From positions 1 through 64,000 of the forward strand of contig JAMOBD010000009.1 in assembly GCA_039908345.1 (NCBI GenBank): 64,000 nt of DNA, read 5' to 3'. The notes beneath the pieces were generated by a model. That model ran no database searches and was not told where the DNA came from. It worked only from the letters and a program-made list of their open reading frames with translations. The stretch is from Magnetospirillum sp. WYHS-4. GTDB lineage: Bacteria; Pseudomonadota; Alphaproteobacteria; Rhodospirillales; GLO-3. Positions 3,458-45,261 of the stretch are shown here, piece after piece (within the stretch, counting starts at the first letter, position 1; every line of letters starts with the position of its first letter). Position numbers and translations under genes: made by a program.

Positions 3458-4840
3458 ATGCTGAAGCAGAAGGTCCAAGGTCTGTTCGACGAGCCGGGCT
3501 GCGCCGCCAACCGGGCCAAGTCGGACGGTGCGCGCAAGAAGGGTTGCGGCAAGGCCCTGGTGCCGGGCGCCGCGGCCGGCGGCTGCGCCTTCGACGGCGC
3601 CAAGATCTGCTTGCAGCCCATCGCCGATGCCGCTCATCTGGTGCATGGACCCCTGGCCTGCGAGGGTAACAGCTGGGACAGCCGCCACGCCCTCAGTTCC
3701 GGCCCCACTCTCTACCGCACCGGCTTTACCACCGACCTGTCCGAATTCGACATCATCCATGGCGGCGAGAAAAGGCTCTACCGTGCGATCAAGGAGATCG
3801 TCGCCCGGTACGATCCGCCCGCCGTCTTCGTCTACCAGACCTGCGTGCCGGCCCTGATCGGCGACGACGTCGTGCGCGTCTGCCGCCACGCCTCGGAAAA
3901 GCTGGGCCGGCCGGTGATCCCCGTCGAGGCGCCGGGGTTCGTCGGTTCCAAGAACCTGGGCAACAAGCTGGGCGGCGAGGCTTTGCTGGACTACGTCATC
4001 GGCACCCGCGAGCCGGCGGTATCCACCCCCACCGACATCAACATCCTGGGCGAATACAACGTGGCCGGCGAAATGTGGCAGGTCACGCCGCTGTTCGCGC
4101 GCCTGGGGATACGCATTCTCGCTTCCGTCACCGGCGACGGGCGTTATGCCGACGTCGCCGCCGCCCATCGCGCCCGGGTCAACATGCTGGTTTGCAGCCA
4201 AGCGTTGATCGCGCTCGCGCGGAAGATGGAGGAACGGTGGGGCATTCCCTATTTCGAGGGCTCGTTCTACGGCATCTCCGATACCTCGGAGGCCTTGCGC
4301 ACCACCGCCCGCCTGCTGGTGGCGCGGGGCGCGCCGACCGACTTGGCGGCGCGTACCGAAGCCCTGATCGCCGAGGAGGAAGCCAAGGCCTGGGCCCGCC
4401 TGGCGGAATTCCGACCCCGTCTGGCCGGCAAGCGGGTGCTGCTCTACACCGGCGGCGTCAAGTCCTGGTCGGTGGTGGCGGCACTCCAGGAAGTCGGCAT
4501 GACCGTCGTCGGAACCTCGGTGCGCAAGTCCACGGAAGGCGACAAGGAGCGCATCCGCTCCCTGATGGGCGAGGAAGCCCCCATGTTCGACGCCATCCCG
4601 CCCCGCGAAATGTACCGCATGCTGAAGGAAGGCGAGGCAGACATCATGCTGTCGGGCGGGCGCACCCAGTTCGTCGCCCTGAAGGCCCGCGTGCCCTGGC
4701 TGGACATCAACCAGGAACGATCCCACGCCTACGCCGGCTACGTCGGCATGGTGGAACTGGTGCGGCGCATCGACCTGGCCCTGTCCAATCCCGTCTGGGC
4801 CCAGGTGCGTGCCCCGGCGCCTTGGGAAGGGGAGGCCTGA
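3458..4840 (+). CDS. nifE: Nitrogenase iron-molybdenum cofactor biosynthesis protein NifE
   Basis: NifE forms the NifEN scaffold on which the NifB cofactor matures to FeMo-co before transfer to NifDK. The 460-aa protein shows the nitrogenase component 1 fold. Cys43 (GGCAFDGAK), Cys68 (GPLACEGN) and Cys129 (VYQTCV) sit where cluster ligands are expected. The ITPLF-like WQVTPLF and the [11 protein letters not shown] segment are typical of NifE. It is the first gene behind the sigma-54 promoter, and nifN starts 3 nt after its stop, so the pair is co-translated. nifHDK is not in this window. Confidence 0.97.
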
Positions 4841-4843
4841 GAC

Positions 4844-6178
4844 ATGACCGAAGCCCCCCGCAAGGCCTGCGCCGTCAATCCGTTGAAAAGCAGCGCGCCT
4901 TTGGGCGCGGCGCTCGCCTTCCTGGGAATCGACGGCTGCCTGCCCCTGTTCCATGGCTCCCAGGGCTGCACCGCCTTCGCCCTGGTGCTGATGGTCCGCC
5001 ATTTTCGCGAGGCCATCCCCTTGCAGACCACGGCGATGAACGAGATTTCCACCATCCTGGGCGGTTCGGACAACGTGGAACAGGCCCTGGTCAACATCGT
5101 CGGCCGCACGAAGCCCAAGGTGATCGGCCTCTGCACCACGGCGCTCACGGAGACCCGCGGCGAGGACTTCTCGGGCGACCTGCGCCTGACGCTGGCCCGC
5201 CGCGACGACCTGGGAGAGACGGCGGTGGTGGTGGCTTCCACCCCCGACTTCGACGGCGGCCTGGAGACCGGCTGGAGCAAGGCGGTAACCGCCATGGTCG
5301 AACAACTGGTCCCCGCGGGGCCGCGCGAAGTGGTAGCGCCCCGCCAAGTCAACCTGCTGGCCGGCAGCCACCTGACCCCGGGTGACGTCGAGGAACTGCG
5401 TGAGATCGCCGAATCCTTCGGCCTTGATGTCATCTTGCTGCCCGATCTGGCCGGTTCGTTGGACGGGCATGTGCCCGACCGCTACATCCCCACCACCTAC
5501 GGCGGCACCCGGCTGGAGGACATCCGCCGCATGGGGCGCTCGATGCTCACGCTGGCCCTGGGCGAACAGATGCGCCCCGCCGCCGAAGCCCTGGAACGCC
5601 AAGCCGGCGTGCCCTTCCGGGTGCTGGACCGCCTGACCGGGCTGGAAGCCTCCGACACCCTGGTTGCGGTCCTGGCCGAACTGTCGGGACGTCCGGTGCC
5701 GCCCAAGCTCCGCCGCCAGCGCAGCCAACTGGTCGATGCCATGTTGGACGGGCATTTCTTCTTCGGCGGCAAAAGCATCGCCCTGGCCGGGGAGCCGGAT
5801 CTGCTGTGGGCCCTGGGCTCGTTCCTTGCCGGCCTGGGGGCAAAGATCGCCGTCGCCGTCGCCACCGACGGCCGGTCGCCCCTGCTGGCCCGACTGCCCG
5901 CCGCCAAAGCCTTCGTCGGCGACCTGGGCGACCTGGAAGATGCCGCCGCCGGCTGCCACCTGATCGTCGCCCCGGCCCACGGCCGCCAGGCCGGGGACCG
6001 GCTGGGCATTCCCCTGTTCCGGGCCGGCTTCCCGGTCTTCGACCGCCTGGGCGGGCCGCAACGGGTGAGCGTCGGCTACCGGGGCACCCGCGAGCTGCTG
6101 TTCGCTGTCGCCAATCTCCTGATCGAGGCCGATTCCGGCCACGAGGTCGCCCATGATGCGCAAACTGCGGCTGGTTGA
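4844..6178 (+). CDS. nifN: Nitrogenase iron-molybdenum cofactor biosynthesis protein NifN
   Basis: NifN is the partner of NifE in the FeMo-co assembly scaffold. The 444-aa sequence starts with the AVNPLKSSAPLGAALAFLG segment diagnostic of NifN, followed by GCLPLFHGSQGCTAFA with the conserved Cys, and later DFDGGLETGW. Length is normal. Its 3' end overlaps the start of nifX by 26 nt, which argues for translational coupling through the operon. Confidence 0.97.
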   Translation: MTEAPRKACAVNPLKSSAPLGAALAFLGIDGCLPLFHGSQGCTAFALVLMVRHFREAIPLQTTAMNEISTILGGSDNVEQALVNIVGRTKPKVIGLCTTALTETRGEDFSGDLRLTLARRDDLGETAVVVASTPDFDGGLETGWSKAVTAMVEQLVPAGPREVVAPRQVNLLAGSHLTPGDVEELREIAESFGLDVILLPDLAGSLDGHVPDRYIPTTYGGTRLEDIRRMGRSMLTLALGEQMRPAAEALERQAGVPFRVLDRLTGLEASDTLVAVLAELSGRPVPPKLRRQRSQLVDAMLDGHFFFGGKSIALAGEPDLLWALGSFLAGLGAKIAVAVATDGRSPLLARLPAAKAFVGDLGDLEDAAAGCHLIVAPAHGRQAGDRLGIPLFRAGFPVFDRLGGPQRVSVGYRGTRELLFAVANLLIEADSGHEVAHDAQTAAG

Positions 6179-16155: not shown

Positions 16156-17469
16156 CTATTCCCGCTCCACCGTCAGCTTGAGGAAGTGGGTGGCGCAGGA
16201 AATGCAGGGATCGTAGTTGCGGATGGTCTGTTCGCAGCGGAGGGTCAGTTTGTCGTCGGGCATGTCGAGGTTATGGGCCACCACGTGGCGCAGGTCTTCC
16301 TCGATCTGTTTCTGGTTCTGGGCCGTCGGGGGCACGATACGCGCCAATTCGACCCGCCCCTCGCGGTCCAGGCGATAGTGGTGGAAGCAGATGCCGCGCG
16401 GCGCCTCGGTGCAGCCGTAGCCCACCCCCTTCTTGGCCGTGACCTGGACGCAAGACGCATCGGGCTCCTCGTAGGCCTTGACCAGCCGCAGAGCCTCTTC
16501 GCAGGCATAAAGGGTCTCGATCATCCGGATCAGGAGACTTTGGTAAGGGTTGTTGCAGACCTTGCCCAGCCCGGCTTCCTTGGCGGTGCGCTTGGCCAGC
16601 GCGGAAAGCTGGGAATAATTGTTGTTGTAGCGAGCGTTCGGCCCCACCAGGTAGTTGGCCGGGCCTTCCTTGGCGAACCCATGCAAGGCATTGGAATGGC
16701 GGACGTGTTCCTCGTCGAAGTGATCGAAGAACTGGGTCAGCGGAATGTCGAGCCCCCGGTTTGAAACGATGCGCCCTTCGCAGATGGCATACTCGTCCGG
16801 ATGGCGTAGCGAAACGCAGGTGTAGTCGTACTCGAAGTCCGGGAAGTCGAAGCCGGCGAAGGCCTGGGTCAGCTCGATGGAAGCCTGGATGCCCCATTCC
16901 AGTTCGGGGATGAGGGCGCGCAGCTTCTCCTTGCGCGGCGTGCCCCAGAAGCCGCCCACCTTCAGGTTCACCGGATGGATGGATCGCCCGCCGATGACTT
17001 CCAGCAGCGAATTGCCGAGCTTCTTCAGGCGTAAAGCCTTTTCCACCAGGGCCGGGTTCTTGGCGGCGATCTGGATGGCGTCGTCCAGGCCCAGGAAGTC
17101 GGGGGCGTGCAGCATGGCGGCGTGCAGGACGTGGCTTTCGATCCATTCGCCGCAATAGGAGATGCGGCGCAGGTCGCGCAACGGACCGGTCACGGTGACG
17201 CCCAGGGCGTCTTCCATGGCTTGGCTGGCGCCCATGATGTAGGCCATGGGGCAGATGCCGCAGATGCGCGCCGTGATGTCGGGCACGTCCGAATACATCC
17301 GCCCGCGCAAGAAGGCCTCGAAGAAGCGGGGCGGCTCGAAGATGCGGAACTTGATGTCCTGGATCTCGCCGCCCTTGACCCGCACGTAGAGGGCGCCCTC
17401 GCCTTCCACGCGCGCCAGGGCATCCACCTTGAGGGTCCGGGTCTTGGCCGGGGCCTTGGGCTTATTCAT
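16156..17469 (-). CDS. [NiFe] hydrogenase large subunit, group 3b-like
   Basis: Catalytic subunit of a cytoplasmic bidirectional hydrogenase. The 437-aa protein has both Ni-Fe ligand motifs: RICGICP (Cys70, Cys73) and DPCISCATH near the C-terminus (Cys422, Cys425). Nine residues follow the His after the last motif, so a short C-terminal peptide may be removed on maturation. Sequence and partners (a FAD/NAD subunit and an Fe-S subunit) fit group 3b, NAD(P)H-linked hydrogenases also called sulfhydrogenases. Its start overlaps the small-subunit gene by 8 nt. Maturation genes (hyp) are not in this window. Confidence 0.92.
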
Positions 17470-18241
17470 GGGCCTCGCTCTCCCTGCGGAAGGCTTCCGC
17501 GTTGGCGGTGAAGCCGCGATAGAAATGCTTGATCTGGCGCTTGCCCATGCCGTGGGCGGCCAGCTGCTTGCTCAGCGACGCCGTGTTCGGCGTTTCCTTG
17601 GGGCCGAAGCAGCCGAAGCAGCCCCGTTCGCAAGACGGGCAGACATTGCCGCAGCCGGCCTGGGTCACGGGGCCCAGGCAGGGCTGGCCCTGGGAAACCA
17701 TGACGCAGACGGTGCCCTGGCGCTTGCACTCGATGCATTGGCTGTAGGTGGGCACGTTGGGCTTGCGGCCGTTCAGGGTGGCGTTGAGCAGTTCCAGCAA
17801 TTGTTCCTTGGAAATCGGGCAGCCGCGCAGTTCGAAGTCCACCGGCACGAAATCCTGGATGGGCGAGGCGTGGCTCAGGGTCTCGATGTATTCCGGATGG
17901 GCGTAGACCGCATGGATGAAGGAGGTCACGTCCTTGAAGTTCCGCAGGGCCTGGATGCCGCCCGCGGTGGCGCAGGCGCCGATGGTTATCAGCACCCGGG
18001 ACTGCTTGCGGATATGGACGATGCGTTCCACTTCTTCCGGCGTGGTCACCGAACCTTCGACCAGCGACACGTCGTAGGGACCGGCGATGCGGGCCCGGGT
18101 CGCCTCCAGGAAGTAGCCGATCTCGACTTCGCCCAGGACGGCCAGCAGTTCGTCCTCGCAATCCAGCAAGGACAATTGGCAGCCGTCGCAAGACGAGAAT
18201 TTCCAAACCGCGAGCCGGGGTTTCTTCCGTGCCGGAGCCAT
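17462..18241 (-). CDS. [NiFe] hydrogenase small subunit, group 3b-like
   Basis: Electron-transfer subunit carrying Fe-S clusters next to the Ni-Fe site. The 259-aa protein begins directly with the proximal-cluster motif [17 protein letters not shown] (Cys18, Cys21), followed by [24 protein letters not shown], and a C-terminal Cys-rich segment with [26 protein letters not shown]. It lacks a twin-arginine leader, so the enzyme is cytoplasmic. The ATG at 18241 lies 3 nt after the preceding gene's stop. Confidence 0.93.
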
Positions 18242-18243
18242 GG

Positions 18244-19071
18244 TCAGATCTCCCTCACCTGGAAGATGTCGCGGATGGTATCGAAGCGGAACACCGGCCC
18301 GTCCTTGCAGACGAACTTGGGCCCGAACTGGCAGTGGCCGCAGAAACCCACGGCGCACTTCATGTTGCGTTCCATGGACACCCAGATGCGGTCGTCGCCG
18401 ACGCCGCGCTGGTTCAGGGCCTGGATGGTGAAGCGCATCATCACCTCGGGCCCGCAGACCAGGACGGTGGCGTTGGCCGGATCGAAATCGGCGCGCGGGA
18501 TCAGCTTGGGCACCACGCCCACGTTGCCCTGCCATTCGGTGCCAGCGGCATCCACCGTCACGTCCACGTAGGTGTCGATGCGCGAACGCCAGCCTTCCAG
18601 TTCCTTGCGGAACAGGATATCGGCCGGCGTCCGGGCCCCATAAAGGATGATGAAGCGGCCGTACTTCTTGCGGTTGGCCAGCACGTGGTAGATGGCCGGG
18701 CGCAAGGGGGCCAGGCCGATGCCGCCGGTGACGATCACCACGTCGGCGCCTTCGGCTTCCTTCATCGGCCAGGCGCTGCCGAAGGGGCCGCGCACGCCGA
18801 CCATGTCGCCCGCCGCGAGGCCGGTGAGCGCGTTGGAGACCCCACCCACGGCGCGGATGGTATGGACCAGCACCCCGCCGTCGGCGGCATCGCCGCTGAT
18901 GCTGATCGGCACCTCGCCGATACCGAACTGGTAGAGCATGTTGAACTGGCCCGGCTGGAACGCGAAAGGCCTGCGGCCTTCCGCCGGAACCAGGTCGAGG
19001 GTGAAGGTGTCGGCCAACTCGCGGCGGACGCGCGTCACCTTGAAAGGCGTGGGGATCATCGGATCGACCAT
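18244..19071 (-). CDS. Hydrogenase FAD/NAD(P)-binding subunit (gamma, HydG-like)
   Basis: This subunit passes electrons between NAD(P)H and the hydrogenase Fe-S clusters. The 275-aa protein has a FAD-binding region ([21 protein letters not shown]), a nucleotide-binding region ([17 protein letters not shown]), and a C-terminal [2Fe-2S] cysteine cluster ([17 protein letters not shown]) like dihydroorotate dehydrogenase electron-transfer subunits. I start it at the ATG at 19071 (VDPMIPTPF); the frame continues open upstream into the neighbouring gene, which is not conserved. Confidence 0.92.
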
Positions 19072-19088
19072 GGCGTCCCCGCTTTCCC

Positions 19089-19586
19089 CTACTTCTTCTT
19101 CGACCGGGACCGGCGTTCCGCCGGCTGGCCATAGAGATCGAGCAACTGCAGGCGGGCGGCCCCCACCCGTTCGGCCATCACCGGGATGAAGCGCTTGAAC
19201 AGTTCGTAGCCCAGGGAATGGTCCTTTTCCAGCTTGCCGCGCAGGCACTTGGCGTCCAGGCTGATGACTCGGGTCAGTTCCACCGCGCGTACGTCGAAGG
19301 TCCAGGTATAGGGCTGCACCATCCAGGACCAGCCGAAGATGTCTCCCTTGCGCAGGGTCTCCAGCACCATGGGGTCATGGCCCGGCGCATGCAACTCGAC
19401 CGCCACCGTGCCGTGGCGGATCAGGTAGAACTTGTCGGCCGGCTCGCCCTCGCGGAAGACGTACTCGTCGGCATCGAAGACCTCGTTCTTGGCGCAGCCG
19501 GACAGCAACTCGCGGTCCTTGGATTCCATGCCGTCGAAGAACGGGTGTTCGGCCAATTCCTTGCCCATGCCCTCGATCTGGACCAT
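19089..19586 (-). CDS. Cyclic-nucleotide-binding-domain protein of the hydrogenase operon
   Basis: A 165-aa protein made of a single CRP-like cNMP-binding beta-roll ([33 protein letters not shown]) and a helical tail rich in Arg/Lys at the very end (RRSRSKKK). It has no helix-turn-helix, so it should not bind DNA. Its place between the Fe-S and FAD subunits is seen in other group 3b operons, which suggests it is a subunit or an allosteric sensor of the hydrogenase. Only 1 nt separates it from the upstream gene. Confidence 0.88.
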
Positions 19587-19587
19587 G

Positions 19588-20721
19588 TCATGCCCTCCCG
19601 TCGCTGTCCCGGATGGCCCGGGCTTCCTCGGTGATGTCGATGCCCACCGGGCACCAGGTGATGCAGCGCCCGCAGCCCACGCAGCCCGATGTCCCGAACT
19701 GGTCGTGCCAGGCGGACAGCTTGTGGATCATCCACTGGCGGTAGCGGGCCTTGGCGTCGCGCCGGATGGGCCCGCCGTGGATGTAGCTGAAGTCCACGGT
19801 GAAGCAGGAATCCCACTTGCGCACCCGCTCGGCGGAATCGCCCTTCAGGTCGGTCACGTCCTCCACCGTGGTGCAGAAGCAGGTGGGGCAGACCATCGTA
19901 CAGTTGGCGCAGTTCAGGCAGCGCTTGGCGACCTCGTCCCAACGGGCGTGGGTCGGGTTGGCCTTCAGCACCACGCCGATATCGTCCGGCACCGTCCGGG
20001 TCATCGATTTGGCGCAGGCGTCCGAACGCTTGGCCGCCGCCTTGCGGTCGGCGTCCTCGGCCGGCCGGCCCTTCAGCTTGGGCAGCAGGCGGGCGCCTTT
20101 CTCCGAGCCGGCCTCGACGAGGAACTCGTGGCGCTTGCCGTCCACCAGTTCGGTAAGGGCGAGGTCGTACCCGGCCGAGGCCCTGGGCCCGGTGTTCATC
20201 GAGGCGCAGAAGCAGGTCGCCGCCGCCCGCCCGCAATTGACGGCCACCAGGAAGGCGCCCTTGCGCCGCAGCAGGTAGCCGGAATCGGTGAACTGGCCGT
20301 TGTCGAAGACCTTGTCGTGGATGGCGATCGCCGCCAGTTCGCAAGGGCGCACCCCGACCAGCGCCATGCGCTCGGCTTCCACCTTGTCGCCGAGGATGAA
20401 GCCGCGACCCTTGCGCACCGCCGTCCAGAGAGTCTGTACCGGCGGATAGAGGAAGCGCTTCCAGGAGTGAGGTCCGACCACATGGTCGAACAGGGCGGGG
20501 CTCTTGGATTTCTTCAGGCGGTAATGGCCGCCTTCCTGTTCGTCCGTCCAACCGCCCGGCAGGTCGGCGGCCGAAGCGACAGGGCCATAGACCACGGCGC
20601 CGGCCTCGACACGCGGGCCCAGGGTCGCATAGCCCTCCCGGCTCAGCGCCTTGACCAGCGCGTCGATACCGTCGAGACCGACGATCACCGCTTCGCCTGC
20701 GGGGTTCTTCTTGGCTGCCAT
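19588..20721 (-). CDS. Hydrogenase Fe-S subunit (beta, HydB-like, 4Fe-4S)
   Basis: First gene of the hydrogenase operon. The 377-aa protein resembles sulfhydrogenase beta subunits: an N-terminal coenzyme-F420-hydrogenase-beta-like region, and two ferredoxin-type cluster motifs, [16 protein letters not shown] (about residues 267-282) and [14 protein letters not shown] (about residues 348-361). It should wire the FAD subunit to the catalytic pair. The 140-bp region upstream shows no clear Fnr or RpoN site. Confidence 0.9.
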
Positions 20722-36260: not shown

Positions 36261-36734
36261 ATGGAACGCATCACCATCAGTCTGGACGAGGACTTGGTCC
36301 GCGAACTGGACGGCTTCATGGAACGGCGCGGCTACGGCAACCGGTCCGAGGCCTTCCGCGACCTGTTGCGGGAAAAGCTGGAAGCCGACCGCCTGGAACG
36401 CGACGAGGGCGGTTTCTGCGTCGGCTGCCTGACCTACATCTACGACCATGCCTCGCGGGAACTGGCCAGCCGCCTCACCCACGCCCAGCACGACCACCAC
36501 GACCTGGCGGTATCCACCCTGCACGTCCATCTCGATCACAAGACTTGCCTGGAAGCCGTGGTACTGCGTGGCGAGACAAGGCGGGTCCGCCAGTTCGCCG
36601 ATAGCGTCACCTCCCAGCCGGGGGTGCGGCACGGCAAGCTCTACATCGTGCCGGCCGATGTCGAGATGGGCCATCACCGCCACGGGCCCGGCCCGACCCG
36701 CGTCCCCCACTTCCACAGCCATCCCAAGACCTGA
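36261..36734 (+). CDS. nikR: Nickel-responsive regulator NikR
   Basis: NikR represses nickel import genes when nickel is sufficient. The 157-aa protein has a ribbon-helix-helix (MERITISLDEDLVRELD, residues 1-50) and a C-terminal ACT-like domain with the high-affinity nickel ligands His77, His88, His90 and Cys96. The tail is His-rich (GHHRHGPGP, HFHSHP), which may add metal binding. No nickel transporter lies beside it, but the cell has a [NiFe] hydrogenase 16 kb away that needs nickel. Confidence 0.95.
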   Translation: MERITISLDEDLVRELDGFMERRGYGNRSEAFRDLLREKLEADRLERDEGGFCVGCLTYIYDHASRELASRLTHAQHDHHDLAVSTLHVHLDHKTCLEAVVLRGETRRVRQFADSVTSQPGVRHGKLYIVPADVEMGHHRHGPGPTRVPHFHSHPKT

Positions 36735-37402: not shown

Positions 37403-37860
37403 TGCTCTATTTCGCCTACGGGCTCAACATGGACGAGGCGGGAATGGCCGGGCGCTGCCCCGGTGCCCGCCTACTGGGAACGGCCCTGCTGGCGGGCCAT
37501 CGCTTCGCCATCACCCGGCTGGGGGTGGCGACGGTGCTGGCGGACCGGCGGGCATCGGTTCCCGGCCTGCTCTGGCACCTGACCCCGGCGGACGAACGGG
37601 CGCTCGACGCCTTCGAACTGGTGGCCGCCGGCCAATACCGCAAGGCTTGGTGCGCCTTGCCGACGCCCGGCGGGCGCTTTCGGCGGTGCCGGGTCTACCG
37701 GGCCGCCGATTCCCGGCCGGGCCGGGCCGGGCCCGGCTATCTGGAGGCGGTCTGGGCGGCACGCCGACGGCACGGCTTGCCGACGCCTACCAGCGCAGGA
37801 ACAGGCGGTCGTCCTCGACGCGGTGGCTTATCACCACGACGCGCTTGGGCTCCAGGGTGA
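37402..37860 (+). CDS. Gamma-glutamylcyclotransferase-like protein
   Basis: A 152-aa protein with the GGCT/AIG2 start LYFAYGLNMDEAGMAGRCPGA, the GLLWHLTPADERALDAFE segment and GPGYLEAVWAARRRHGLP near the end. The family cyclises gamma-glutamyl peptides, but many members have unknown substrates. After HGLP the frame is Arg/Gly-rich, unlike the family, and runs 74 nt into the convergent gene. A frameshift near 37785 or a poorly conserved tail may explain this. Confidence 0.75.
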   Translation: MLYFAYGLNMDEAGMAGRCPGARLLGTALLAGHRFAITRLGVATVLADRRASVPGLLWHLTPADERALDAFELVAAGQYRKAWCALPTPGGRFRRCRVYRAADSRPGRAGPGYLEAVWAARRRHGLPTPTSAGTGGRPRRGGLSPRRAWAPG

Positions 37861-38533
37861 TGGTTTCCTCAAGCCGATGGTCGAAGTCGGCCTTGTCCTG
37901 CTTCAGGCGCATCAGGGCCACCAGCTTGTGGGTTCCCGCCGGAACCAGGAACTTGGCGTAGAAGACCGAATTGCCGTCGCTGGACAGCCCCGAAGGCTTC
38001 ACCGTCCGCTCGTAGAGCGCCTTGCCGTCCAGTTCGACCCTGATGGTCACCGGCGAACGGCCTCGGCTTTCGCAGACCGTCTTGATGCGGCCCTGGGGGG
38101 GCAGCTTGGCCAGTTCCTCCGGAGTGCGCTCGCGACAGGCCCCGGAATGGAGGCCGGGCCGGCTGAGACTGAGCTTGATCTCGGCTTGATCGGCAGCGTG
38201 CAGGTGATAGGTCGGGTTGTTGGAATAATAGGCGATGGGCAGGCCCAGCAGCCCATAGAAAGCGGCCTGGCCCAGCAACTGGACCGGAGTCCGGCGCTCG
38301 CTGCGCTTGATGATCCGCTGGGCATCGCCCATCTTCTTGCGCCGCTCCGCCATCAGCGAGTCGCGTTCCGCCTTTTCCCGACGCAGCTTGCGCATGATCT
38401 CGCCGGGCAGGAACACCACATGCCCGATACCGATGTTGTACATGGCCCAGATCAGGATCGGACCGAAGAACATGATCGGCACGATGTAGAAGACGGGAAC
38501 GCCGCCGATCTTGGTGAAGAGGATATCGAACAT
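37787..38533 (-). CDS. Unrecognised membrane protein at the end of the oxidase-like operon
   Basis: I do not recognise this 248-aa protein. It starts MFDILFTKIGGVPVFYIVPI with a TM helix (about 14-36), then a charged, helical segment (about 45-75), a second hydrophobic helix (about 87-103) and a soluble C-terminal domain rich in beta-strand (VTIRVELDGKALYERT, KFLVPAGTHKLVALMRL). It begins 12 nt after the cytochrome b fusion gene, so it is probably a subunit or accessory of that complex. No heme or Fe-S motif is seen. Confidence 0.75.
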   Translation of the reverse strand: MFDILFTKIGGVPVFYIVPIMFFGPILIWAMYNIGIGHVVFLPGEIMRKLRREKAERDSLMAERRKKMGDAQRIIKRSERRTPVQLLGQAAFYGLLGLPIAYYSNNPTYHLHAADQAEIKLSLSRPGLHSGACRERTPEELAKLPPQGRIKTVCESRGRSPVTIRVELDGKALYERTVKPSGLSSDGNSVFYAKFLVPAGTHKLVALMRLKQDKADFDHRLEETITLEPKRVVVISHRVEDDRLFLRW

Positions 38534-38545
38534 GACGGTTTCCCC

Positions 38546-40126
38546 CTACTCGGCCGCGGCTTCGGCGGCGGTCGGCTTGCCGGCCGGTGGAGGCGGCAGG
38601 GTTCTGAGACGGCCACGGAAGGCCGCGATCTCTTCGCTCAACTGGGCAGCATCGATGGGGCCGGCGAAGGACACATGCAGACGTTCGCGCGGGACGCGGC
38701 GGCGCAGGTAGGGGTCCCGCATGCCGTCCATGCGCTCCTCCATCCAGCGGTCGCCCAGCCGATTGAAGCAGTCGCAGGATCGGCAGGAGGCCACGACCAC
38801 GCCGTCGGCCCCATCGGCGGCCAGGGCGAAGTCGATGAAAGAAGGCGGCAGCATGGAAATGCACGGCAGCGCCACGCCCTTGACCCCTCCGGTCTCCACC
38901 TCGTTCACCCGGGCGCCGTGGTAGCAGCCCAGCACCAGGACGACGGGTTCCCCTGCCGGCGCATCCCCGCGGGCCTCGGCGATGGCCTTCACCGTCAGCG
39001 CCCGTAGCTCCTTCAGGCGGAAGTCGGGCAGATCGATACCGGTGGTCAGCTCCTCCGTATGGCGGAAGGGTGTCGAGGTGGGGCAAGCCCCCACGCAGAT
39101 GCCGCAAGCGGTGCAGAGGGAGGGATCGACCACCGCCTCCTCGTCGAAGGGCCGGCCGTCGGTACGGGCCTGCATCTGCACGGCGCCGAAGGGGCAGTCG
39201 ACGAAGCAGCGGGTGCAGCCGTTGCATTTCTCCAGGTCGACCACCGCGGCGCGGGGCAGCTTCACCGGCGGCAGCCAGGGCATGGCGGCGACCAGGAACG
39301 ACACGCCCACCATGACGATCCACAAGGGCCCGGCGCCGTACTTTTCCAGCACCGGATAGAACAGCATGTAGAACCAGTCCAGGTTCACCTGGGCCGGCGA
39401 CATCCCCAAATCGGCGGGACCGTGGGATCGGGCCGGATAGATCAACGACACGGCGACCAACATGAACAGGATGCCGAGGCCCAAGCCGCGGGGCGGGTTG
39501 ATCTTCGGATGCTGCACGCGCAGCACGTGGATCCACATGATGAAAAGCAGGAACAGCGGCGCGAAGATGTGCATGAAGACCAGCAGCGTGAAGAAGCGGT
39601 CGGTCAGGCTGCCCCGCATGAGGAAATTGTTGGCGATCGGCTCGCCGAAGATGCCCAGCCAGTCCAGCCATTCCATGGACCGCACGGCCACGTACTGGGC
39701 CAGTTCGTCCCACACCAGCCAATAGCCGCTGATCCCCGAGGTGTAGAGGAACCACAGAATGGGCACGCCGGTGAACCAGGTGAACCAGCGGGCGTCACGG
39801 TAGCGGTCGAAAAGAAACTCGCGCCCCATGTGCCAGACCGCCGTCACCACCATGGCGTCGGAGGCGTAGCGGTGGATGCTGCGCATCACGCCGGCCAGCC
39901 ACCACTGTGCGGTGATCCTTTCCACCGACTGGTAGGCGTTGGGCACGTGGGTGTCGAACATCACGTAGACCCAGATGCCGCTGATGGCCACCAGCCAGAA
40001 CAGGAAGAACGAGATCGTTCCCATCTGGCGCATGGGGTTCCACTTGGGGCCGAAGGGCTTGTCGACCAGGGCCTCCAGACGCAGAAGGGCGTTCTGCAGG
40101 GGCTCGCGGATGAGTCTCTTCTTCAA
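38546..40126 (-). CDS. Cytochrome b / 2[4Fe-4S] ferredoxin / MvhD-FlpD-like fusion protein
   Basis: A 526-aa three-part fusion. Part 1 (about 1-285) is a bc1/b6-type cytochrome b N-terminal domain. His85/His99 and His186/His200 each have 13 residues between them, as needed for two b hemes. Part 2 (about 292-352) is a ferredoxin with CNGCTRCFVDC (301-311) and CTACGICVGAC (338-348). Part 3 (about 393-490) resembles the MvhD/FlpD Fe-S subunit of hydrogenase/heterodisulfide reductase complexes, with GCYHG (Cys401), PCISML (Cys422) and CRSCDC (448-453). The fusion could move electrons between a cytoplasmic donor and quinone or subunit II. A Nnr-type promoter precedes it. Confidence 0.88.
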   Translation of the reverse strand: MKKRLIREPLQNALLRLEALVDKPFGPKWNPMRQMGTISFFLFWLVAISGIWVYVMFDTHVPNAYQSVERITAQWWLAGVMRSIHRYASDAMVVTAVWHMGREFLFDRYRDARWFTWFTGVPILWFLYTSGISGYWLVWDELAQYVAVRSMEWLDWLGIFGEPIANNFLMRGSLTDRFFTLLVFMHIFAPLFLLFIMWIHVLRVQHPKINPPRGLGLGILFMLVAVSLIYPARSHGPADLGMSPAQVNLDWFYMLFYPVLEKYGAGPLWIVMVGVSFLVAAMPWLPPVKLPRAAVVDLEKCNGCTRCFVDCPFGAVQMQARTDGRPFDEEAVVDPSLCTACGICVGACPTSTPFRHTEELTTGIDLPDFRLKELRALTVKAIAEARGDAPAGEPVVLVLGCYHGARVNEVETGGVKGVALPCISMLPPSFIDFALAADGADGVVVASCRSCDCFNRLGDRWMEERMDGMRDPYLRRRVPRERLHVSFAGPIDAAQLSEEIAAFRGRLRTLPPPPAGKPTAAEAAAE

Positions 40127-40240: not shown

Positions 40241-40282
40241 TTTATCACCATCCGCCATGTAAAACACCTTGACAGCGGTCAA
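40241..40282 (-). promoter_or_regulatory. Nnr/Fnr-type promoter of the cytochrome b fusion gene
   Basis: TTGACAGCGGTCAA (40269-40282) is a perfect inverted repeat of the TTGAC-N4-GTCAA form used by NO-responsive Nnr/Dnr regulators; Fnr would prefer TTGAT-N4-ATCAA. On the minus strand 22 nt separate it from GATAAA (40246-40241), a good -10. That spacing puts the box centre at -41.5 from a start near 40234, the classic class II position. The box overlaps the stop codon of the SCO gene. Confidence 0.72.
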
Positions 40283-41163
40283 GCTTGTCCTTCGCGGGCC
40301 GCGATCTCCGCATCGCGACGGCGCTGCCGGTCGCGGCGGGCGAGGCGGATCCAGGAATAGATCACATAGCCGGCGATGGCGCTGACGATCATGCCCTGGA
40401 CCACGATCTTGTAGATGCGGACCCAGTCGAAGCGATAGGTGTTCGATGCCGGATCGTAGATCGTGCAGAACAGCTTCACCTTCTTGACGAAATCCCGAAC
40501 GCTGGCATAGGGCGTGCGGGTACCGAAGACCAGTTCCTTCAAAGGCTCCACCAGATGGGGCGTTTCGAAGTTCTCGTCGAAGACTTGGCGGTAGACCGCC
40601 CCCTGTTGGTCGATGACGCTGACCATGGCGACGTGCTCGAAGCCGCCGGCCCGCGAGACGAAGGTGAAGCCCAGTTCGTCGGACAGGCCCGACACCGCGG
40701 GCAGGTCGCCCGACAAAAACAGCCAGTTGCCGTCGTCGATGCCTTGTTTACGGGCGAAGGCCCGCATCTGCTGCGGCGTGTCGGTCCGCGCGTCGAAGCC
40801 AACGGTCAGGATGTAGAAGGCATCGCGGCCCAGCGCCTTGCGGGCCACGGCGACCGAATGCTGGATCGTGTTGGTGATGGTCGGGCAGACGTCGAAACAG
40901 CCAGTATAGACCAAGCTGAGGACCAGAGGCTTGCCGGAGAAGTCGGAAAGCTTCACCTGCCGGCCGTCGGGATCGACGAACTGGAAGTCGGAAATCTTAC
41001 GCCCGATGGCCGCTTCGGCACGCATCAGCGCCGATTCGGGATCGATGCGGCTGACCGGGCCTCCGGCCTCGGGGGCCTTGCCGATGTCCGGCTGCTTGGC
41101 CGACGCCGGGCATACGGCAGCCAGGGCGAGGGCCAGGGCGAAAAGAAAGGAATGTCGGTTCAT
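40279..41163 (-). CDS. SCO1/SenC/PrrC-family protein with C-terminal membrane anchor
   Basis: A 294-aa copper-binding thioredoxin-fold protein that helps assemble CuA or relays redox state. It has an N-terminal signal or TM segment (residues 5-22), the copper motif TGCFDVCP (Cys89, Cys93) with the distant His177 (FEHVAM), and, unusually, a second TM helix near the C-terminus (about 252-270) followed by an Arg-rich cytoplasmic tail. It lies between the subunit I gene and the cytochrome b fusion, so it probably matures the CuA site of subunit II. Confidence 0.92.
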   Translation of the reverse strand: MNRHSFLFALALALAAVCPASAKQPDIGKAPEAGGPVSRIDPESALMRAEAAIGRKISDFQFVDPDGRQVKLSDFSGKPLVLSLVYTGCFDVCPTITNTIQHSVAVARKALGRDAFYILTVGFDARTDTPQQMRAFARKQGIDDGNWLFLSGDLPAVSGLSDELGFTFVSRAGGFEHVAMVSVIDQQGAVYRQVFDENFETPHLVEPLKELVFGTRTPYASVRDFVKKVKLFCTIYDPASNTYRFDWVRIYKIVVQGMIVSAIAGYVIYSWIRLARRDRQRRRDAEIAAREGQA

Positions 41164-41273: not shown

Positions 41274-42947
41274 TCAGGAGAGCGGCCAGACGGAAGCCAG
41301 ATATTTCCAGTTCACGAAGTAATAGAGCACGAACGTGATCAGGAAGATGATCGCCAGAACGAAGGTGCCGGGAACCGACACGCCCTCGCCGTGGCCGCTC
41401 ACGCCGGCCGGAGCCGGAGCAGCGGGGGCGGGAGCGGCAGCCGCGGTCTTGCGCTTGCCGATCAGGATGGTGCCGACCATGTTCAGGATGAAGATGGCAC
41501 CGCCCAGCGAGGCCGCCAAGGCCGCCACGCCGTTCATGCCCATCATCAGGAACGAAGCCGCCGGCAGATCGTAGCCGATGGTGGCGTCCGCCAGAGTCAT
41601 GTCCCAGTGGCGGCGCGGAGCACCGAGAGTACCCGCACCCATCTGGAACACGCCGACGAAGCTGACGCCCAGGCCGAACAGGTACGGCGCCCACTTGGCG
41701 AGACCGGGGGCGAAAAGCTCCCGCTGCCACAGGGTGGGAACCGCCCAGTAGGCCATGGCCATGAAGGCCAGGGTCGTACCGGAACCGACCGTCGTGTGGA
41801 AGTGGCCGGGGACATACATGGTGTTGTGCATGATCAGATTGAGCTGCTCGGTGCCAATCACCACGCCGGAGATGCCGCCCAGGAAGCCGAACGTCACCAC
41901 CGAGATGGCCATGCCGGAGAACACCGGGTTGCCCCAGGGCGCCTTGCGGAGCCACTCGAACAGACCCTTGTTGTAGCCCTTCTTGCGCATCGCCGCCTCG
42001 ACCGAGCCGGGCACGGTCAGACCGTGGATCATCGAACCCAGCACCGCCATGTAGAGGGCGTACGAGGTGTTGAAGATCTTGTACTCGGAGCTGAGACCCG
42101 GTTCCACCAGGAGGTGGTGGGCGGAGGCCAGCTGGAGGAACAGGATGTACAGGAAGAAGGCCATGCGGCTCACCTTCTCGCTGAGCGGCTTCGCCCCGAA
42201 CAGGATGGCGGCGATACCGTACCAGCAAGCGATGTGGGCCGACACGTTGATCTGCTGCGACGAATGGCCCATGCCCCACCAGACCACCTTGTAGAGCAGG
42301 GAGTCGATGTGGGGAATGATGCCCGCCGACCACAGCAGGGTCGGGATGAGGATCACCGCGCCGGTGGCGATGGTGAAGACCGCGATGATCGCGGCCACCA
42401 TGGCGCCGAAGGTCACCAGCGGCATGGAACCCTCGAAGGTCTTTTCCTTCTTCGCGGTCACCAGGGTGGCGAAGAAGATGCCGCAGCCGATCAGCGCGCC
42501 CACGGCGAACAGGATGATGCCGAGGTAGAAGTGCGGAGCGGCCTTGAGCGGGACGTAGGACGTGAACATCACGCTCGAGTCGCCCTGCAGCACCGCCACG
42601 TTGGTGATGGCCGCGCCGACCAGCATGAGCCCATATTGGACCCAGCCGAGCGTCGGTGCCACCAGGCGGGCGTTAAGCAGGATCGCCGAGGTGAAATAGA
42701 GCAGGACCATCTCGAAGAAGATGACCCAGACGAGCAGGATGTCGAGACCGTGACCGGTCAGGACAAGGTAGTAGAGGTCGGCGCCGAGAAGATGGACCTC
42801 GGGCCAACGGGTCAGTGCCACCAAAAGACCGAAGAGACCGCCGACCAGAAGAAACACCACCGACGTGACGGCATTCCATTTGATCAGCTTCTCCGCCGCA
42901 AGGTCAACCTTGAGGCCGGTCTCGGGGCAGGTGCGGAATTCAGCCAT
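41274..42947 (-). CDS. Heme-copper oxidase-like subunit I lacking the active-site Tyr (candidate NO reductase)
   Basis: A 557-aa membrane protein with about 13-14 TM helices. The metal ligands are present: His66 (LTGHGLDI) and His384 for the low-spin heme, His382 (VPGHFH) for the high-spin heme, and His228, His277 and His278 for CuB. In O2 reductases of the A and B types a Tyr lies four residues after the first CuB His (HPEVY or HPIVY). Here the sequence is WWGMGHSSQQINV, giving Gln232. Loss of this Tyr is the mark of heme-copper enzymes assigned as NO reductases (the sNOR/eNOR/gNOR/CuA-NOR groups). I infer NO reduction; an atypical O2 reductase cannot be excluded. A Pro/Ala linker precedes the last TM helix. 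Confidence 0.88.
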   Translation of the reverse strand: MAEFRTCPETGLKVDLAAEKLIKWNAVTSVVFLLVGGLFGLLVALTRWPEVHLLGADLYYLVLTGHGLDILLVWVIFFEMVLLYFTSAILLNARLVAPTLGWVQYGLMLVGAAITNVAVLQGDSSVMFTSYVPLKAAPHFYLGIILFAVGALIGCGIFFATLVTAKKEKTFEGSMPLVTFGAMVAAIIAVFTIATGAVILIPTLLWSAGIIPHIDSLLYKVVWWGMGHSSQQINVSAHIACWYGIAAILFGAKPLSEKVSRMAFFLYILFLQLASAHHLLVEPGLSSEYKIFNTSYALYMAVLGSMIHGLTVPGSVEAAMRKKGYNKGLFEWLRKAPWGNPVFSGMAISVVTFGFLGGISGVVIGTEQLNLIMHNTMYVPGHFHTTVGSGTTLAFMAMAYWAVPTLWQRELFAPGLAKWAPYLFGLGVSFVGVFQMGAGTLGAPRRHWDMTLADATIGYDLPAASFLMMGMNGVAALAASLGGAIFILNMVGTILIGKRKTAAAAPAPAAPAPAGVSGHGEGVSVPGTFVLAIIFLITFVLYYFVNWKYLASVWPLS

Positions 42948-42963: not shown

Positions 42964-43506
42964 TCAATTGTCCGTCACGTAGATCTTGCCGGTCATGATG
43001 TGGTGGCCCGTGCCGCAGTACTCGTTGCACAGGATGCCGTAGGAACCGGAACGGGTCGGAGTGACCTTCAAGATCATTTCGTATTCGGGATGGACTTGGA
43101 TGTTGATGTTCTCGGGCAGGAGCGAGAAGCCGTGCTGCACGTCCATCGAGGACATGTGCAGACGATAGGTCGCGCCCTTCTTCAGTTCGAGCACCGGCCA
43201 CCACTGGAACTGGCGGCCGAGCAAATAGGCGTCGCCACCCACCGGCGGACGAACCACCGGAATGCCGGTCGTGCCCTCTTCACGCACCTTGTGCTTCTCG
43301 GCGGAAGCCTCGACCTTGGCCAAATAGGCGTCGGGCTTCACCCGATAAGCCTCGTTGGACAGGTTCTGCTCGCCGGCGAAATGCCAGTAAGGCATCATGA
43401 AGAACATAACCAGGGCCCACACCAATGCGATGGTGACCCAGAGAACCTCCGTCTTTTCGACGGGTTCGTTCCACCAAACCCGTTGTTCTGGAGGAGTAAT
43501 AGCCAT
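42964..43506 (-). CDS. CuA-containing subunit II of the oxidase-like complex
   Basis: A 180-aa subunit with one TM helix (about 21-40) and a periplasmic cupredoxin domain. All CuA ligands are present: His125 (DVQHGF), Cys160 and Cys164, His168 and Met171 in CNEYCGTGHHIM. It can therefore take electrons from a soluble donor such as a cytochrome c. The single-helix layout is like subunit II of ba3-type enzymes. It lies 16 nt before subunit I. Confidence 0.93.
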   Translation of the reverse strand: MAITPPEQRVWWNEPVEKTEVLWVTIALVWALVMFFMMPYWHFAGEQNLSNEAYRVKPDAYLAKVEASAEKHKVREEGTTGIPVVRPPVGGDAYLLGRQFQWWPVLELKKGATYRLHMSSMDVQHGFSLLPENINIQVHPEYEMILKVTPTRSGSYGILCNEYCGTGHHIMTGKIYVTDN

Positions 43507-43521
43507 GTAGTATCCCCCTCT

Positions 43522-43671
43522 CTAACGTCCCATGGGAATTGCTACGACTTCCATCACGCCCCAGATGGTGTAGAGCACCGTCGGGAACAGGACGCCGAGC
43601 ACCAATAGCAGAATCGGATTATCAAGAACCTGCTGCATAAACGGCACAGGCTCCTGCGAATGGTCGGCCAT
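43522..43671 (-). CDS. 49-residue single-helix membrane peptide, first gene of the oxidase-like operon
   Basis: The minus-strand ATG at 43671 opens a 49-codon frame ending TAG at 43522. The product has a polar start (MADHSQEPVPFMQQVLDNP) and one TM helix (about residues 20-43, ILLLVLGVLFPTVLYTIWG) with a short tail. The AGGGAGG just upstream (43674-43680) is a good RBS. Subunit II starts 15 nt after it. By size and position it resembles the small IIa-type subunits of ba3 oxidases, though no sequence match can be claimed. Confidence 0.7.
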   Translation of the reverse strand: MADHSQEPVPFMQQVLDNPILLLVLGVLFPTVLYTIWGVMEVVAIPMGR

Positions 43672-44185
43672 AGCCTCCCTCCTCTTCTTTCACAACCTAA
43701 GAACCCCCCCCCGGTCGATCGCTCGCCGAGGCGGAAAACCCTCTTCTTCAGTAACCCGAACATCCACCATGCCCGGGGGGCATAGGGCCTTAACCTAAGT
43801 CAATTTTGGGCGCTTTTCCAGGATTTCGTCGAACAATTCACGGGACCGCCGGGTGAAATGCTACAGATTCGCATCGGCTGTCGGGGCGCCGGCCAAGGAA
43901 AGGAAGCATACCTTACTTTTTATTTATTCTAAGCAAAGATAATTCCAGCACTTGCGTCAAATGACTCGGGACGGTGTGTGATATGACGCATTTTTATCTT
44001 CGGTCGGTGGCGCTCGTCCACCAGGAATATCCAGGAATAGCTTGGAATACGGCCACTTTCTTGGACTTGGCCTGCCTCTTGCGGTCAGGAGTTCACGGAT
44101 GTCTCCGCCATGCCGGCGGGGAATGGATCCCTTCAGCCAACAAGGCGCCAAGACTGTGAGATGGATCGACACGATACGCAGGACA
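43672..44185. other. 514-bp divergent intergenic region
   Basis: This gap separates the minus-strand oxidase-like operon from the plus-strand SCO gene. It holds the Nnr-type box at 43790-43803, a long pyrimidine/C-rich stretch near 43700, and an AT-rich patch (43911-43940) that stands out against the GC-rich genome and may contain promoter elements for either side. Open frames in it look like noise. Confidence 0.6.
43790..43803. promoter_or_regulatory. Nnr-type box upstream of the oxidase-like operon
   Basis: TTAACCTAAGTCAA fits the TTAAC-N4-GTCAA pattern of Nnr boxes upstream of nitrite and NO reductase genes in alphaproteobacterial denitrifiers. It lies 119 bp from the start of the 49-aa gene. 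A good -10 at the class II spacing is not obvious here, so the exact promoter is unclear. Confidence 0.6.
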
Positions 44186-44749
44186 ATGCGGAAGGGAGGG
44201 GCGGCGACGGCCTTCGTCCTTCTTCTGGCCGGGGCGGCAGGTGCGCGCCTGCTGCCCGTTCCACCGGCCCCCGCTTTCGTCGATGCCTCTTTTCATCTGG
44301 TCGACTCCCAAGGGCGCAGCCACGTTCGGCAGGATTTCCTGGGCACCCCCTCCCTGATCCTCTTCGGCTATACCTCCTGCCCCGATGTCTGCCCTACCGG
44401 TCTCGGCCGCATGGCGGAAACCCTCGCCCGCCTTGATGCCGACGGCAATCGCCCGCGAGCCTTGTTCATCACCCTGGACCCGGAACGCGATGGGGCGGAG
44501 CGAATCGGAGACTACCTGGCCGCCTTCGATTCCCGCATCCAGGGATTGACCGGCAGTCCCGCCGAGGTGGCCCAGGCGGCCAAGGCCTTTCGGGTCTACC
44601 ACGCGAAAGTGGGCGGCGAGGACTACCGCATCGACCATACCGCGGCTATTTTCCTGGCGGGAGCGGACGGCCGTCTCCTGGCCTCCTTCGGGCCCGACGA
44701 TCCGCCCGAGGCGATGGCCACGGAGATCCGCCGCCGGCTCGCATCCTGA
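44186..44749 (+). CDS. SCO1/SenC-family copper chaperone
   Basis: A 187-aa thioredoxin-fold copper protein anchored by an N-terminal helix (residues 6-23). It has the CPDVC motif (Cys65, Cys69) and the ligand His151 ([12 protein letters not shown]). It should deliver copper to, or reduce, a CuA site. I prefer the ATG at 44186; a GTG at 44156 is an alternative. It is followed after 35 nt by the PCu(A)C gene, and the pair forms a copper-delivery unit divergent from the CuA-containing complex. Confidence 0.92.
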
Positions 44750-44784: not shown

Positions 44785-45261
44785 ATGACCCCTTTCCGCA
44801 CCGCTCTGCTGGCCGCCGCCTTTGCGACCCTCGCGCTGCCCGCTCTCGCCGGCTCGATCACGGTGGAGGAGCCCTGGGCCCGAGCCTCGGCGGGCATGGC
44901 CAAGGCCGGCGCCGCCTTCCTGACGCTCCGCAACGACGGCGACGCGCCGGACCGCCTGGTAGGCGCCAAGTCCGACGCCAGCGCCAAGGTCGAGCTGCAT
45001 ACCCACAAGAACGTGGACGGCGTGATGATGATGCGTCCGGTCGAGGCCATCTTGGTGCCGGGCAAGGGTTCCGCCATGCTCAAGCCGGGCGGCGACCACG
45101 TGATGTTCATGGGGCTGAACAAGCCCCTGGTGGAGGGGCAGAGCGTTTCCGTCACCCTGGTTTTCGAGAAGGCCGGCGAGGTCAAGGTCGCCATCCCCGT
45201 CAAGGCGGCCGGCGCCATGGGGGCCATGCCCAAGGGGGCCATGGACCACTCCAAGCACTGA
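44785..45261 (+). CDS. PCu(A)C-type periplasmic copper chaperone
   Basis: A 158-aa protein with a signal peptide (residues 1-22) and the family's copper site H-X10-M-X21-H-X-M, here His72, Met83, His105 and Met107. PCu(A)C works with SCO proteins to load copper into CuA and CuB centres. An AGGAG RBS precedes the ATG. The tail contains Met and His residues ([14 protein letters not shown]) that may add metal binding. A strong terminator follows. Confidence 0.95.

Follow-up and report, generated by a model that had tools for sequence, protein, structure and literature searches.

To our knowledge, nitric oxide reductases draw their electrons either from cytochrome c or from quinol. The FlpD (MvhD) domain is best known from hydrogenase-Hdr bifurcation. 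In Sporomusa ovata, MvhD was found mostly in the membrane fraction, and a link of an Hdr-type enzyme to membrane electron transport was proposed (PMC9430772). eNOR is a Gln-type, B-family-related nitric oxide reductase (PMC8756737; PMC11388526, which cites Murali et al. 2024), and its hallmark is a glutamine at the position of the active-site tyrosine (PMC8756737). We analysed a window of 64,000 nucleotides, positions 1 to 64,000 of contig JAMOBD010000009.1 of Magnetospirillum sp. WYHS-4, in which a gene that joins an FlpD-like domain to a cytochrome b lies next to eNOR-type genes (Table 1).

Table 1. Features of the eNOR-type locus and its surroundings (window positions).
Feature	Position	Strand	Evidence
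TM/beta protein: 248-aa membrane protein, periplasmic beta domain, two invariant Cys (133, 154)	37787..38533	-	AF2 pLDDT 87.5
Fusion, 526 aa: cytochrome b (two b hemes) + 2[4Fe-4S] ferredoxin + FlpD/MvhD-like	38546..40126	-	ORF, Pfam, family alignment, AF2 model
Fusion, FlpD/MvhD-like part, residues 415-510, predicted [2Fe-2S] site	38597..38884	-	PF02662, conservation, QmoB alignment, MvhD chains of solved structures
Fusion, 2[4Fe-4S] ferredoxin part, residues 294-352, Cys301/304/307/311 + Cys338/341/344/348	39071..39247	-	Pfam, conservation
Fusion, cytochrome b part, residues 22-292, bc1 helices A-F, His85/99/186/200	39251..40063	-	Pfam, hhalign/mafft vs own bc1 cytochrome b
Perfect inverted repeat TTGACAGCGGTCAA between SCO and fusion; NNR-like box or short hairpin	40269..40282		Repeat/box scan
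SCO1/SenC copper chaperone, C-terminal TM	40279..41163	-	PF02630; conserved in operon
eNOR-type heme-copper subunit I: His66, His374/382/384, CuB His228/277/278, Gln232	41274..42947	-	COX1 Pfam; Gln232 in relatives
Subunit II with CuA motif CNEYCGTGHHIM	42964..43506	-	Profile matches; motif in 69/70 relatives
49-aa single-TM small subunit, upstream of subunit II	43522..43671	-	Similar ORF in 54/69 loci
FNR/NNR-like box TTGACTTAGGTTAA, one mismatch to TTGAC-N4-GTCAA, 284 bp before subunit II	43790..43803	-	Box scan
Second, divergent SCO1/SenC gene; possible CuA assembly helper	44042..44749	+	Pfam
PCu(A)C copper chaperone; possible CuA assembly helper	44785..45261	+	Pfam

The fusion gene, which starts with a TTG codon, encodes the single three-part chain that the initial annotation had read from the sequence, and three Pfam matches above the Pfam cut-offs confirm that reading: Cytochrome_B at residues 22-204 (E 8e-15), paired Fer4 at residues 294-352 (E 2e-11) and PF02662 at residues 415-510 (39.4 bits against a curated cut-off of 22.3, E 7e-10). 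The MvhD profile, whose failure had been considered a risk, thus detects its domain clearly. The four histidines named earlier as heme ligands, on helices B and D, are invariant among 63 relatives, consistent with two b hemes, and each of the eight ferredoxin cysteines, also recognised earlier, is retained in 55-63 of them. In the FlpD part, Cys401, Cys422, Cys448 and Cys453 are kept in 56-59 of the 63, with Cys401 just N-terminal to the Pfam stretch; these conserved residues are predicted to bind a [2Fe-2S] cluster. Losses of ferredoxin and FlpD cysteines are almost entirely confined to seven members of the alignment in which these domains have been swapped for others, as described below.

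We looked for full-length three-domain relatives in two genome samples; 24 of 385 genomes carry one in the class sample and 34 of 399 in the phylum sample. A pattern scan of GTDB genomes confirmed the fusion at no fewer than 332 loci; almost all of the 80 scan loci listed are alpha-, beta- or gammaproteobacterial. The survey of the domain order called for in the initial annotation therefore shows a layout that is widespread in Proteobacteria and not unique. The reading frame is unbroken in every listed class genome that carries the fusion, and one TGA lies inside a handful of the phylum matches. Because the frame is intact in so many genomes, the false joining of three genes by sequencing error, raised at the outset, is ruled out. 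Our literature search found a cytochrome b-ferredoxin-FlpD fusion described nowhere, and an earlier mention in Murali et al. 2024 is possible.

What is the partner of the fusion? The neighbouring subunit I reads WWGMGHSSQQ where O2 reductases show HPEVY, such that glutamine (Gln232) takes the place of the cross-linked active-site tyrosine; this glutamine is present in 80 of 81 relatives, and the CuB and heme histidines are retained. Subunit II is of the cupredoxin CuA type with a complete motif, and subunit I shares 43-45% identity with its Thermus and Thermomicrobium homologues. Because of the active-site glutamine and the CuA subunit, we assign the heme-copper enzyme of the window to the eNOR-type nitric oxide reductases. 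Its subunit I is currently annotated as 'cbb3-type cytochrome c oxidase subunit I' and the fusion only as 'cytochrome b N-terminal domain-containing protein'; under such names, the system is likely to be overlooked in surveys.

The linkage between fusion and eNOR is tight. Of the 78 loci whose sequence extends at least 3.5 kb upstream of the fusion, 76 encode eNOR subunit I inside that stretch and in the orientation of the fusion. Two loci deviate: L093, where the eNOR operon adjoins divergently, and L122, an orphan. The orphan copy (L122:7881-9536), in a MAG labelled Acidobacteriota, adjoins a cyclic-nucleotide-binding/rhodanese protein. In the class sample, all 23 genomes with eNOR subunit I are among the 24 with the fusion, and in the 24th the contig is cut. 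The conserved gene order runs from the small TM subunit through subunit II, subunit I, heme O synthase (often within the operon in relatives, missing from the window), SCO and the fusion to the TM/beta protein, after which hemerythrin often follows; ORFs similar to the small TM subunit also occur in Defluviimonas, Thermus and Thermomicrobium. From these results, we conclude that the fusion is almost certainly a component of the eNOR operon.

In 90 of 92 loci the fusion has a homologue of the TM/beta protein on its downstream side, the window copy having an extra N-terminal stretch relative to the others. A Pfam search with this protein gave no match to a known family. Comparison of its model with known folds yielded no clear match: the beta-sandwich hits were unspecific, and no hit reached E <= 0.001. 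A further heme-copper subunit-I homologue, with the motif GGGHVLQF and no CuB His-His pair, is predicted to be CuB-less; in the Magnetospirillum genome it adjoins ctaB (G000:C33:54653-55990; L155:8639-10066), and in many beta- and gammaproteobacteria it lies directly downstream of the eNOR operon. It was also seen at L058, L076, L079, L081, L096, L099-L107, L111-L116, L123 and L126. As a required partner of the fusion it was rejected: at family-specific scores it is absent from most fusion-bearing alphaproteobacterial genomes, with strong matches in that sample only in G000, G059 and the fusion-less G344.

We examined eight-kb surroundings (six kb for Natrialba) of plasmid-borne eNOR-like genes in Thermus thermophilus, Thermomicrobium roseum and the haloarchaeon Natrialba magadii. 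In these regions we found subunits II and I, and no cytochrome b of the fusion type; the Thermus genes lie near a nitrite reductase, an Rrf2 regulator and a DUF542 protein. Because these eNORs have no such gene nearby, the fusion appears dispensable for the core NO reaction, and it looks like a proteobacterial addition to eNOR. The same comparison bears on the idea that the conduit serves maturation instead of catalysis, with electrons sent to the periplasm to reduce SCO, or else the two-Cys TM/beta protein, while CuA is being assembled. Such a role would fit the gene order, in which the fusion is flanked by SCO and by a periplasmic protein whose two cysteines are invariant, as well as the frequent heme O synthase. 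However, the three reference eNORs have a subunit II and no fusion nearby, and a two-heme conduit with several clusters seems heavy machinery for an assembly task; we consider this explanation quite unlikely.

The surroundings of the operon point to nitric oxide. FNR/NNR-like boxes (TTG(A/T)N-N4-N(T/A)CAA, within 600 bp upstream of subunit II) are present at 43 of 68 loci as compared with 7% of random windows, a background drawn from the same loci with coding sequence included, which makes the size of the enrichment rough. Pfam searches of 112 neighbouring ORFs identified hemerythrin (16), Crp/FNR regulators (12), cytochrome d1 (4), ApbE (4) and NnrS (3). The Magnetospirillum genome that carries the fusion contains cytochrome d1 (NirS-type) genes, and no NirK above the cut-off was found in it. 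These NO-related neighbours and boxes, together with the glutamine that replaces the active-site tyrosine, argue against an O2 reductase operon fed by the fusion cytochrome b, a view close to that of the initial annotation; although there are distant matches to the COX1/COX2 families and to CtaD/CoxB models, we regard it as highly improbable. Of the 'subunits I and II' named there, both are indeed present, but subunit I is eNOR-like rather than an O2 reductase, and the small TM subunit had gone unnoted.

The clearest indication of how the fusion works comes from betaproteobacteria. In their eNOR operons, Fer2, FAD_binding_6 and NAD_binding_1 domains (BenC type) take the place of ferredoxin-FlpD on a cytochrome b that belongs to the same family and mostly occupies the same operon position. 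This swapped form was identified by Pfam at eight loci (L081, L093, L100, L104, L107, L114, L116 and L125) and by motif at L099, L103, L106 and L112; the cytochrome b-2Fe-2S/FAD/NAD(P)H reductase fusion at L081:3711-5645 has relatives that include those of Gallionella and Ferrigenium. P0001 is 42% identical to the window fusion across the first 352 residues. In a cytochrome b tree, the swapped forms make up one clade (support 100/100) nested among the FlpD forms, and thus one replacement event would suffice, probably after duplication. BenC-type 2Fe-2S/flavin reductases normally draw electrons from NAD(P)H. Mainly because the swapped version carries such a reductase, we take the cytoplasmic part of the fusion to be an electron entry, and probably an exchangeable one.

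The membrane part resembles the cytochrome b of the bc1 complex. By hhalign, residues 1-292 align with the bc1 cytochrome b of the same genome up to the cytoplasmic end of helix F, with corresponding heme ligands and with LDWF at the position of PEWY; D250-W251, on the periplasmic side, is invariant in all 63 relatives. At the point where the bc1 protein continues into the Qi-side de-loop (Lys-Asp) and helices G and H, which are absent from the fusion, the ferredoxin begins (hhalign/mafft). In the AlphaFold2 model (pLDDT 92.4, pTM 0.89) the top PDB fold matches are bc1 cytochrome b. In profile searches, an HdrA2 model matches residues 292-510. The invariance of the DW motif is suggestive of a quinone site, quinone may be used on the periplasmic side, and quinol may be the real donor. 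In that case the cytochrome b would oxidise quinol at a periplasmic, bc1-like Qo site and pass electrons to CuA, with the cytoplasmic domains in a side role. Besides the motif and a fold and alignment that span bc1 through helix F, the lack of a conserved cytochrome c gene in the operons examined is consistent with this. This explanation is possible but doubtful, as it accounts neither for the retention of eight cytoplasmic cluster ligands nor for the betaproteobacterial exchange for a complete NAD(P)H reductase.

A variant of quinol oxidation would, as in bc1, split the two electrons of quinol: one would go to CuA and NO, and its partner would travel via the b hemes into the cytoplasmic clusters, yielding reduced ferredoxin or NAD(P)H with NO reduction as the driving force. 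The bc1-like two-heme layout, the p-side DW motif and the replacement of the Qi site by clusters are in keeping with such bifurcation, as is the fact that many fusion carriers among the listed loci belong to metal or sulfur lithotroph lineages such as Gallionella. We nevertheless judge it very unlikely: it would be thermodynamically tight, a Rieske-like mobile domain was not seen, and the listed carriers also include Litoreibacter, Seongchinamella and Bradyrhizobium.

We hypothesize that the fusion is an accessory subunit that feeds eNOR with electrons from the cytoplasm, a reading to which we give a probability of about 0.55 and for which we infer the complex, the direction of flow, the donor and the last transfer step. 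The bc1-like cytochrome b would hold its two b hemes across the membrane, with ferredoxin and FlpD at the cytoplasmic end; that the ferredoxin follows the cytoplasmic end of helix F argues for this topology, as do the loss of the Qi-side residues and the invariance of the periplasmic DW motif. Electrons from a cytoplasmic donor, probably a soluble iron-sulfur protein or flavoprotein for the FlpD form and NAD(P)H directly for the betaproteobacterial form, would enter at the FlpD [2Fe-2S] cluster and pass via the 2[4Fe-4S] ferredoxin to heme b(n) and heme b(p). On the periplasmic side their acceptor would be CuA of subunit II, reached either in one step or by way of a quinone held close to the DWF motif, and the heme-CuB site of subunit I would then reduce NO to N2O. 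Several points count against such feeding: the Thermus, Thermomicrobium and Natrialba eNORs do without a fusion gene nearby, no cytoplasmic partner gene is conserved beside the fusion, the DW motif may mean that quinol is the donor, and moving electrons out to the periplasm would cost membrane potential. The initial annotation had suggested a path between a cytoplasmic redox pool and a CuA enzyme; this is the best-supported idea, strengthened by the NAD(P)H reductase version, but the partner is eNOR instead of a generic CuA oxidase.

If feeding from the cytoplasm is correct, denitrifiers would have a new way to draw on cytoplasmic iron-sulfur or NAD(P)H pools for making N2O, a step that yields a greenhouse gas, and the FlpD domain would be part of an NO respiratory complex. 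With the naturally swapped form at hand, the direction of electron flow can be tested directly. A bolder and unlikely proposal is that the eNOR of Proteobacteria works as a transmembrane complex linked to energy conservation, in which cytoplasmic entry modules (ferredoxin-FlpD or NAD(P)H reductase) plug into a bc1-like cytochrome b, possibly a quinol bifurcator that uses NO to obtain low-potential electrons; it would be an uncharacterised kind of NO reductase and of b-cytochrome.

How does this operon compare with known systems? The initial annotation had placed MvhD/FlpD proteins in bifurcating complexes as the normal case, and precedents outside them exist in the membrane-linking Sporomusa MvhD (PMC9430772) and in a QmoB-like protein of the Magnetospirillum genome. 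The latter, encoded in a QmoA-QmoB-HdrC-HdrB-like cluster (G000:C2, L156:4401-9507), is the product of the only other FlpD gene of that genome, and shares 26% identity with the fusion over residues 301-502, with corresponding FlpD cysteines. HdrA/MvhD flavin-bifurcating complexes combine an FAD-containing HdrA with hydrogenase or HdrBC, whereas no HdrA-like, hydrogenase or HdrBC gene was found in the operon at the loci examined. The window does encode, elsewhere, a [NiFe] hydrogenase cluster (16156-20721, minus strand; large subunit Pfam-confirmed) that resembles NAD(P)-linked group 3 and contains no MvhD-type subunit, as well as a NikR-type nickel regulator (36261-36734, plus strand; Pfam) and nitrogenase-component-type genes, likely nifE and nifN (3458-6178, plus strand; the first Pfam-confirmed). 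The COX operon type a-I of Degli Esposti (PMC4013037) was considered and set aside as a different, ACIII-linked cluster.

Known eNOR shares with the operon of the window the active-site glutamine of subunit I and the CuA subunit II, and a small TM ORF likewise lies upstream in Thermus and Thermomicrobium; the eNORs examined from these two and from Natrialba consist of subunits I and II only, to which the operon of the window adds SCO, the fusion and the TM/beta protein. With bc1/b6f cytochrome b the fusion has in common the four histidines with their 14-residue spacing, helices A-F and a PEWY-like motif, but it lacks helices G and H and the Qi-side residues, carries cytoplasmic Fe-S domains instead, and has no Rieske or cytochrome c1/f partner gene in its operon. 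The best NCBIfam match of the cytochrome b part is the ExtP/ExtQ b-type cytochrome of a selenite/tellurite operon, at 91.5 bits far below the family cut-off of 290, and ExtP and ExtQ are separate proteins without an Fe-S fusion. The C-termini of QmoB and HdrA2 show the same ferredoxin-FlpD order; these, however, are FAD proteins of soluble or membrane-attached complexes, whereas the fusion has no flavin domain and joins the module to a cytochrome b. Finally, BenC/AscD-type 2Fe-2S flavin NAD(P)H reductases, which substitute for the ferredoxin-FlpD part in betaproteobacterial eNOR operons, usually feed oxygenases, whereas in the swapped form they are fused to a cytochrome b within a NOR operon.
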